DNA of 57,658 bases, taken from positions 1 through 57,658 of the forward strand of contig JAAFIR010000035.1 of the NCBI GenBank assembly GCA_013297885.1. The letters are read 5' to 3'. Source of the stretch: Leptospirales bacterium (lineage in GTDB: Bacteria; Spirochaetota; Leptospiria; Leptospirales; Leptospiraceae). Below, piece by piece: positions 25,955 to 30,723 of the stretch (its first letter is position 1; each line of letters opens with the position of its first letter). The notes below the pieces were generated by a model that worked only from the letters and a program-made list of their open reading frames with translations, was not told where the DNA came from and did no database searches. The position numbers and the translations under genes were made by a program.

Positions 25955-26083
25955 TTTTTTGGGCAAATTTTTTTGTTTGCGAAGATAACTTGGAGTTTTC
26001 TTCACAAACAAAAAAACCGAGCTTTTCGCTCTTGTCATAAAATTTCATACGAAATTTTATGACACCGCTTCAATCTCTTTTGC
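25955..26083 (-). repeat. Structured intergenic repeat R4
   Basis: Read on the minus strand: 5' module GCAAAAGAGATTGAAGCGG, arm A TGTCATAAAATTTC/GAAATTTTATGACA (perfect 14 bp, loop GTAT), middle AGAGCGAAAAGCTCGG (a GAGC-GAAAA-GCTC hairpin), arm B TTTTTTTGTTTG and GAAGA paired with TCTTC and CAAACAAAAAAA, end TTTGCCCAAAAAA. The closing helix is GCAAA/TTTGC, differing from other copies by compensated changes. Confidence 0.88.
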
Positions 26084-26235
26084 GTTGTGTTGGGGAATTT
26101 TATTTTATAGACTCATGTTACGCAAAATTAATTTCTTTTAAGTTTTATATGGATAAAAAAATTTAAAAGTTTCTTTTTACTAATAAATCCATGAGCTTGC
26201 GGCAGCAAACCCCCCGTTAGGGGCATATCAAAGAC

Positions 26236-29886: not shown

Positions 29887-30498
29887 TTAATTTTCTATTT
29901 TAAAAAAAAGTCTTTTTTCATTAATTTTAATTTCTGGTGATTTGTGAATAATTCCTTTTCCCAAATTTTTTGGATATGCTTCACCTTTTAAAATAGAAAT
30001 AGAATAAGTTTCTAATTGTTTAATTTCTTTTTGGCAAATTGGAACTTTTAAATTGTTTCCAAGACCAAGCTCTTTGCGGTTTGAATTTTGATTTTCTAAA
30101 TAAATAGTTCCAACCCCAGAATAAGTTGAGATCAGTCTCAATGAAACAAAATCAACATGAAATTTTGGGCATTGAACTTTATCAATAATAGCCAGTTGAA
30201 TTTTTAACTTTTTTGATTTAGAGATTTTTTTAAATTCTTCTATAATCATTTTAAGGTCTTGTATAAATTCATTTTTTCCAAAGTTTTCAGGAAGAGATTG
30301 GAATTCTTTTAGAAAGTTTATTTCATTTGTGTTGAATTCAAATTTTTGTTTTTCTAATAAAAATTTTGTATAAATTTTAATTTTTTCTTCTAAAGTTCTA
30401 ACATATGATACTAAATTAATTTCCTGATCTAAAATTTTATTTAATACTGAAATTTGGTCAGAAATTAGAACATTTGATCTAATTAAACTTGAATTCAT
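29887..30498 (-). CDS. DUF1826 family protein, candidate metal-stress gene
   Basis: A 203-aa protein. Residues about 115-150 carry the DUF1826 core CPKFHVDFVSLRLISTYSGV followed by GTIYL; the Cys and His-x-Asp are conserved and look like metal ligands. An N-terminal helical region precedes it. From memory, DUF1826 genes in proteobacteria often sit in Zur (zinc-repressor) regulons. A perfect 21-bp palindrome lies immediately before the start codon (30499-30519), consistent with control by a Fur/Zur-type repressor. No ribosome-binding site is visible, since the palindrome occupies that position; the transcript may be leaderless. Confidence 0.78.
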   Translation of the reverse strand: MNSSLIRSNVLISDQISVLNKILDQEINLVSYVRTLEEKIKIYTKFLLEKQKFEFNTNEINFLKEFQSLPENFGKNEFIQDLKMIIEEFKKISKSKKLKIQLAIIDKVQCPKFHVDFVSLRLISTYSGVGTIYLENQNSNRKELGLGNNLKVPICQKEIKQLETYSISILKGEAYPKNLGKGIIHKSPEIKINEKRLFFKIEN

Positions 30499-30519
30499 AA
30501 ATGCAACATAGTTGCATTT
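30499..30519. promoter_or_regulatory. Palindromic operator candidate at the DUF1826 start
   Basis: AAATGCAAC-ATA-GTTGCATTT is a perfect 9-bp inverted repeat with a 3-base centre that abuts the start codon of the DUF1826 gene. Its size and symmetry fit Fur-superfamily operators (Zur, Fur, PerR). A bound repressor would cover the start of transcription and translation. The regulator is not identified here. Confidence 0.55.
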
Positions 30520-30556
30520 GTTTTTTTGTAAACTAGAAAATTATTACCTACACAAA

Positions 30557-30723
30557 GCGAAAGAGATTGAAACGGCGTTAAAAAATTTTGATAGAAATTT
30601 TTTAACAAGAGTTGAAAGCTCGTTTTTTTTTCACCTAATTCAGTTTTAATTAAATTTTATTTTTTTAATTATATTCCTTTACAAACTAACAGGGTTAGGT
30701 GGAAAAAAATTCGCCCAAAAAAA
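30557..30723 (+). repeat. Structured intergenic repeat R5 with M-type ends inside arm B
   Basis: 5' module GCGAAAGAGATTGAAACGG; arm A GTTAAAAAATTT/AAATTTTTTAAC; middle AGAGTTGAAAGCTCG, in which GAGT pairs with GCTC through a G-U-type pair; arm B TTTTTTTTCACCTAA/TTAGGTGGAAAAAAA; end TTCGCCCAAAAA. The closing helix is GCGAA (30557-30561) with TTCGC (30710-30714). The CACCTAA/TTAGGTG at the arm B base resembles the ends of the M elements. Confidence 0.88.

Follow-up and report, generated by a model that had tools for sequence, protein, structure and literature searches.

The perfect palindrome beside the start codon of a DUF1826 gene in the stretch of DNA studied here (the window, 57,658 nucleotides, which is the whole contig C39 of the 4.6-Mb genome G000) is very probably the operator of a zinc-responsive repressor of the Fur family, which would work like Zur through a variant box. 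With sufficient zinc, a zinc-loaded repressor dimer would sit on the 21-bp palindrome, cover the -10-like hexamer TATGTT and touch the start codon, and the DUF1826 promoter would be shut off. When zinc is scarce, the repressor would release the DNA, and DUF1826, zigA, znuACB and an operon headed by a lipoprotein gene would be turned on together. The repressor in this scheme would be the Fur paralogue encoded on contig C19, and the DUF1826 product, a predicted iron enzyme, would be made during zinc shortage.

The palindrome and the predicted DUF1826 promoter

The letters of the palindrome are AAATGCAACATAGTTGCATTT, laid out as AAATGCAAC-ATA-GTTGCATTT (Table 1). The earlier note had described it as a perfect palindrome that covers the start of the DUF1826 gene; it is indeed perfect and adjoins the ATG, which itself lies just outside it. 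The DUF1826 start is well placed, since inspection of the DNA revealed no ATG, GTG or TTG in the open frame upstream of it. The reading frame matches PF08856 with 139.7 bits (1.5e-40), exceeding the gathering cut-off of 22.

Table 1. Features of the window around the start of the DUF1826 gene
Feature	Position	Strand	Remark
21-bp palindrome, proposed zinc-repressor operator	30499..30519	.	Perfectly matched 9-base arms around a 3-base centre (9-3-9)
15-bp core TGCAAC-N3-GTTGCA	30502-30516		Inside the palindrome
ATG start codon of the DUF1826 gene	30496..30498	-	Directly adjoins the palindrome
DUF1826 gene, 203 aa	29887..30498	-	PF08856 match
-10-like hexamer TATGTT	30505..30510	-	Inside the palindrome; 3' end 7 nt from the A of ATG
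-35-like hexamer TTTACA	30527..30532	-	16-nt spacer to TATGTT

By itself, the palindrome is not significant. The window holds 15 perfect palindromes with arms of at least 9 and a centre of at most 5 bases, whereas 60 first-order Markov simulations of this AT-rich window gave 7.4 on average and 16 at most; palindromes with at least six G/C had a simulated mean of 0.98 per window. One such palindrome is therefore expected anyway, and it was rejected as stand-alone evidence. No second copy with up to three mismatches was found within the window on either strand. The case for an operator rests on recurrence at zinc genes, and it is by this recurrence that the palindrome becomes significant. At 2857-2876 and 2905-2924, separated by 28 bases, the window also holds two perfect inverted repeats of higher GC content.

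Since the -10-like TATGTT sits inside the palindrome, a block of transcription by the bound palindrome is plausible, and the short distance from this hexamer to the A of ATG predicts a transcript start at or near the start codon; a leaderless DUF1826 mRNA is likewise plausible. The palindrome lies at the predicted promoter of the gene that it would regulate. This promoter, TTTACA-16-TATGTT, has the same register on the box as the promoters of three merC genes of related genomes, TTGACA-17-TATGTT, in which TATGTT consists of the palindrome centre and the first bases of the right arm. The promoter-like sequence of the DUF1826 gene in the related genome G006, TTGACA-17-CATCGT, is one base off this register, and at znuA of G000 TTGACA follows immediately after the core. 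No good promoter in the register of merC and DUF1826 was found at the remaining box-bearing genes, and repression at the -10 element is thus supported for merC and DUF1826 only.

These promoters also bear on the idea that the palindrome acts as a hairpin in an RNA leader, hiding the start codon, and not as a DNA operator. A transcript that included the palindrome could fold into a 9-bp stem right beside the ATG, but the predicted DUF1826 promoter puts the palindrome upstream of the transcript start, the distance between box and start codon varies at other genes, and at the three merC-like genes the box overlaps TTGACA-17-TATGTT, so that it would act at the promoter there. A leader hairpin is thus very improbable, and the DNA operator is the preferred reading.

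A repeat element about 75-84 bp long, its ends inverted, is dispersed in the genome and occurs at 30547-30630 and 26010-26093 of the window. Further copies were found at the loci L044, L042, L004, L026, L006, L035 and L005 of the same genome (E < 1e-5), and the element looks like a MITE or REP element. The repeat is present upstream of both zigA and DUF1826, but a common origin of these two upstream regions was rejected because of its dispersal.

The box in genome G000 and in its family

The core TGCAACNNNGTTGCA has two exact copies in the genome, one at the DUF1826 site and the other at C51:129902, where it ends 35 nt upstream of the ATG of zigA, which encodes a COG0523 GTPase (NCBIfam ZigA, 680.8 bits vs the cut-off of 600). 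The extended pattern AATGCAACNNNGTTGCATT with up to three mismatches was found at 30 places genome-wide, as compared with 2 for the backwards pattern; controls of the latter type are lenient because the backwards pattern holds CpG, and a control with permuted palindromes was therefore added at the zigA loci discussed below. Most of the 30 places (24) are inside ORFs and 2 are elsewhere, while 4 precede start codons, namely those of DUF1826, zigA, znuACB and the lipoprotein-headed operon. The window site ranks best. The second, C17:149225, heads znuA-znuC-znuB, as identified by PF01297, an ABC transporter ATPase and PF00950. Two mismatches are present at three places: zigA, C20:17171 and a third inside an ORF. 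C20:17171 heads the gene of a 94-aa protein with HIHKSHSECELC, followed by genes of a 260-aa lipoprotein-like protein and a 545-aa protein. The box thus recurs upstream of genes of zinc uptake and allocation in the same genome.

When the core alone was sought with at most one mismatch, G000 yielded six places, three of which are inside unrelated ORFs; these (on C1, C5 and C33) were dropped as targets for that reason, and the C17 place at znuA was retained. Core places with two mismatches include C28:79908, C43:2525 and C34:18067, none of which was counted as a target. A mechanical extension of the zigA ORF to a GTG would cover the site upstream of zigA in G000. Here, as at merC of G001 and the znu operon of G003, a later start was adopted on the basis of the beginning of the family match (for G003, the beginning of related proteins), and the sites were counted as upstream.

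In the eight genomes of the family, all eight exact cores precede genes, and they are present in six of the genomes. Their targets are DUF1826 and zigA in G000, zigA and the znu operon in G006, the znu operon in G007 and one merC-like gene each in G001-G003, the latter being identified by PF03203, which the G002 protein matches and which was found in all three genomes. It is the box itself that suggests a zinc link of the merC-like genes. This MerC-family membrane protein (L161 3040-3447) stands under the box in three sister species lacking zigA and DUF1826; G000 has no MerC-family gene.

A weight matrix of 23 bp was built from 11 sites, with the znu operons of G001-G005 left out of the training. 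All five of these held-out operons turned out to be headed by the box (17.5-22.8 bits), their sites having one degraded half, TGAAAT or TGACAC. The box was thereby found at a znu operon in all seven other family genomes; one of the two znuA copies of G002 (L216) is on a contig that begins too close upstream for the box to be judged. The merC site of G005 is weak (11.5 bits). The operon order in G001-G005 is a small protein (absent in G005), a lipoprotein-like protein, a large secreted-looking protein and znuA, while its counterpart in G000 is divided into two halves, each with its own box in front.

A small protein with HxH...CxxC is encoded at the front of the znu operon, or of one half where the operon is split (L221 219-503, L215 1868-2212, L217 3893-4237, L219 2657-3007). 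The pattern was found in at least G001, G002 and G004; the small protein of G000 had no Pfam match. It is perhaps a periplasmic or membrane zinc-binding protein. Genes of lipoprotein-like and large secreted- or outer-membrane-like proteins come before znuA (L221 609-3148, L215 2415-4946), in G000 on another contig, and the G000 lipoprotein had no match in Pfam or NCBIfam. These two proteins are candidates for outer-membrane zinc uptake.

The other family genomes yielded 24 one-mismatch cores, of which 22 are inside ORFs of at least 80 aa, some of these ORFs being doubtful. The intergenic ones are at DUF1826 of G006 and at G004:C2:763039; that at G004:C2:1020334 is 33 bp before a 452-aa membrane-protein ORF, yet within a short opposite ORF. 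The core of G006 lies 3 nt from the DUF1826 ATG, which is the same position as in the window, and the two proteins are 42% identical. The zigA (E <= 1e-60) and DUF1826 genes co-occur in the same three of the eight genomes, G000, G006 and G007. In G007 they are adjacent on one strand, and the contig ends inside DUF1826, which hides the upstream site. The box is conserved at orthologous genes in relatives.

It is hardly credible that the palindrome arose by chance and has no function. The abundance of palindromes of this size in the window and in the simulations given above is what speaks for chance, which is contradicted by the exact cores at gene starts in six of the eight family genomes, by the identical position in G006 and by the box at named zigA loci of other bacteria. 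The earlier proposal of a Zur/Fur-type operator, in contrast, is borne out by the box at znuACB, zigA, the lipoprotein-headed operon and the znu operons of the family. The earlier note had proposed a search for the motif at zinc transporters, ribosomal-protein paralogues and a fur-family gene, and copies at the first of these were found, at znuACB of G000 and at the znu operons of the seven relatives. No motif at the start of a ribosomal-protein paralogue was recognised among the 30 best places in the genome; a three-mismatch place on C68 is inside an ssb-like ORF, with an S18-like gene 223 bp downstream, and was taken for chance. Nor did the weight matrix reveal a site above 10.5 bits, as autoregulation would need, at any of the 27 fur-family loci of the family.

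A candidate repressor and the zigA loci of other bacteria

Outside the family, the exact core was found in 2 of 40 class genomes (G019 and G032). These copies were rejected as zinc sites, since their neighbours resemble a flavin oxidoreductase, enolase and flagellin. G032, a relative from the class, encodes a flagellin that has an entry called FlaB1 among its best PDB matches, which would suit a spirochaete. No box was found in the 330 bp upstream of the match at the four DUF1826 genes of class relatives outside the family (L013, L016, L017 and L018; 61 genomes). In the order relative G023 (L013), zigA is located directly upstream of DUF1826.

In addition, 80 named zigA loci were compared. A DUF1826 match (E <= 1e-5) was present on the examined stretch in 14 of them, the weakest being that of L106 (44.4 bits), which overlaps zigA itself. 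The TGCAAC core with at most one mismatch was found upstream of zigA at 11 of the 80 loci, as compared with a simulated mean of 0.27 and a maximum of 2. The search covered 1300 bp, less at short loci; three of the 80 had under 300 bp of upstream DNA. In the permuted half-site control with 180 palindromes, the TGCAAC box came first with its 11 loci, the next palindrome had 4, and the mean of the others was 0.21. The GTTATA-type box, which was counted under looser rules than the TGCAAC core, was found at 36 of the 80 loci; no locus had both types, and 33 had neither.

Three Fur-family genes were found in G000, and each kind is present in all eight family genomes. They are a Fur-like gene on C51, a PerR-like gene on C55 and a third on C19, with ISKATIYR, LSFATVYN and WDRVTIYR in the regions of their recognition helices, respectively; the names Fur-like and PerR-like denote best scores, which are below curated cut-offs. 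The C19 paralogue is a protein of 153 aa with DRVTIYR in the recognition-helix region and CNECGKIECL. All eight family members of the C19 type have WDRVT[IV]YR, as well as Cys where the Fur-like paralogue has Glu after the first CxxC. Its FUR domain passes the Pfam cut-off (51.5 bits vs 23.1), and it fails the E. coli-type Zur model NCBIfam NF008646 (26.1 bits vs 167). Its nine matches among solved structures comprise seven ferric uptake regulation proteins, one peroxide operon regulator and one Fur-family regulator, none of the nine being called a zinc regulator. No zinc gene was recognised around the C19 gene.

In a quick tree built from 27 family sequences and 18 of the named zigA loci (45 in all, some rows having false N-terminal extensions), C19 was grouped with seven named Fur proteins encoded near zigA with a support of 0.952. 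These belong to Methylophilus, Methylotenera, two Variovorax, Pseudacidovorax, a MAG labelled Bordetella and a deltaproteobacterial MAG. At their loci, the box is upstream of zigA in six cases out of seven, and the TGTTATA type in none. Eight named Fur proteins have a D[RQ][VS] helix, four of them with the Cys. Seven of the eight are grouped with C19, and the eighth, L123, is elsewhere in the tree without support; this group, Fur near zigA with the D[RQ][VS] helix, was defined after the tree was seen.

At the loci compared, the type of helix went together with the type of box. A single box type, together with a local Fur whose helix could be read, was present at twelve loci. All seven with the TGCAAC box (L066, L076, L077, L080, L097, L122 and L123) had the D[RQ][VS] helix, and none of the five with the GTTATA box (L068, L073, L081, L105 and L126) did. 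Fisher's test gave p = 0.0013, a value which is optimistic because the loci are partly related (two Variovorax; Methylophilus and Methylotenera), and the helix pattern was chosen after inspection of the tree. The locus L083, with a Fur match lacking a readable helix, was set aside. L092 has the D[RQ][VS] helix and no box upstream of zigA, with a one-mismatch copy elsewhere on the contig.

The C19 paralogue is most likely the repressor of the TGCAAC box, as judged from its helix and its place in the tree. The box might instead be a zinc-gene operator read by the Fur-like protein of C51, by the PerR-like protein of C55 or by a repressor that does not belong to the Fur proteins. Each of the three paralogue types is present in all eight genomes, the Fur-like gene is about 12.5 kb from zigA, and the zinc dependence is deduced from gene content only, all of which would suit such a repressor. 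Against it, the D[RQ][VS] helix was found at every readable box locus and, among the paralogues, is shared by C19 only, and the tree joins C19, and not C51 or C55, to the seven named Fur proteins, six of which have the box. A repressor other than C19 is therefore unlikely.

The DUF1826 protein, known zinc regulons and biological meaning

Fe(II)/2-oxoglutarate oxygenases are recognised by an HxD...H iron triad and a following Arg. The DUF1826 sequence contains this motif as H114-x-D116, H185 and R196, which are invariant in 12 of 12 sequences of one alignment and 7 of 7 of another. In its AlphaFold model (pLDDT 89.5), the fold appears to be the same as that of solved Fe(II)/2-oxoglutarate oxygenases. 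The best 50 of 112 Foldseek matches (E <= 0.001) carry titles of non-haem iron oxygenases, mostly 2-oxoglutarate-dependent ones, and have a probability of 1.00. Structural matches include VIA (Z up to 10.9, rmsd 5.0, 170 aligned) and PHD2 6yvx (Z 10.6, rmsd 3.2, 152 aligned). The best guess for DUF1826 is thus an Fe(II)/2-oxoglutarate oxygenase, since fold and motif combine here, the fold alone showing no function; if so, the cell would make an iron enzyme under zinc shortage. The word 'dioxygenase' was found in none of the papers mentioning DUF1826 in a literature search of mainly open-access papers, and the accessible part of PMC5786701 relates DUF1826 to succinylglutamate desuccinylases instead.

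The tie of DUF1826 to zinc-limitation regulons, which the earlier note had mentioned, agrees with the same source, in whose accessible part the DUF1826 gene FTN_1758 of Francisella novicida is more than 30-fold up in a zur mutant and under zinc chelation with TPEN (PMC5786701). Similarly to the window, a palindrome is upstream of DUF1826 in this bacterium, there 56 bp from the start; its repeats are described as heptameric, and the comparison is by this description only (PMC5786701). Haas et al. 2009 present DUF1826 in a figure of gene clusters of Zur-regulated COG0523 members, the COG0523-DUF1826 clusters being under predicted Zur control, and report Zur sites mainly for Firmicutes and proteobacteria, with some for cyanobacteria; the accessible text does not contain the spelling 'spirochaet' (PMC2770081).

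According to the accessible part of a review, Zur regulons are known from proteobacteria, actinobacteria, Bacillales and cyanobacteria, and 'spirochaet' or 'leptospira' is not mentioned there (PMC6103462). The system described here resembles them in the logic of a Fur-family repressor, in the palindromic site at the promoter and in targets including znuABC, COG0523 GTPases and outer-membrane uptake. It differs in its core TGCAAC-N3-GTTGCA from the E. coli motif TRWNAYRWTATAWYRTNWCA, and also in that no ribosomal-protein paralogue or fur target was recognised (PMC6103462). The GTTATA ... TATAAC core of the TGTTATA-class proteobacterial Zur box is absent from the palindrome. The system was not filed as an E. 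coli-type Zur because of this difference in motif and because C19 fails the corresponding model.

The accessible parts of PMC10882993 and PMC13192273 report cobW genes as targets of Zur in Cupriavidus metallidurans, with two boxes before the cobW1 operon. The regulon is likened to the present one by its targets and not by box letters, and this bacterium may offer an experimental example of the same box. In Leptospira interrogans, the Fur paralogue LIMLP18590 (Ffr2) clusters with Zur/Nur, its function being left open in the accessible part of PMC8638967; it carries Asp at position 103, apparently a Cys position in the C19 type (PMC8638967). A literature search of mainly open-access papers returned no paper linking a Zur box, zinc and TGCAAC.

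On balance, we lean towards a wider interpretation of these sequence comparisons, with some reserve. A second zinc-sensing Fur lineage, having the D-R-V-T helix and in part Cys at the Fur sensor Glu, would read TGCAAC-N3-GTTGCA, control zinc-starvation genes and replace the TGTTATA-type Zur in this spirochaete-like family, and likewise in certain beta-, delta- and other bacteria. Its conserved target DUF1826 would be an unrecognised iron/2-oxoglutarate oxygenase made at low zinc, possibly leaderless here.

The palindrome thus offers a readable operator, and C19 a candidate regulator, for zinc control in a probably spirochaetal lineage. The pairing of helices and boxes suggests a simple code in which the recognition helix of a Fur protein corresponds to one of two zinc boxes, and such a code would allow regulons to be predicted across phyla. 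For DUF1826, formerly an uncharacterised gene, the analysis suggests an enzyme that can be put to the test, namely an oxygenase that has a predicted iron site and would be induced by zinc starvation.
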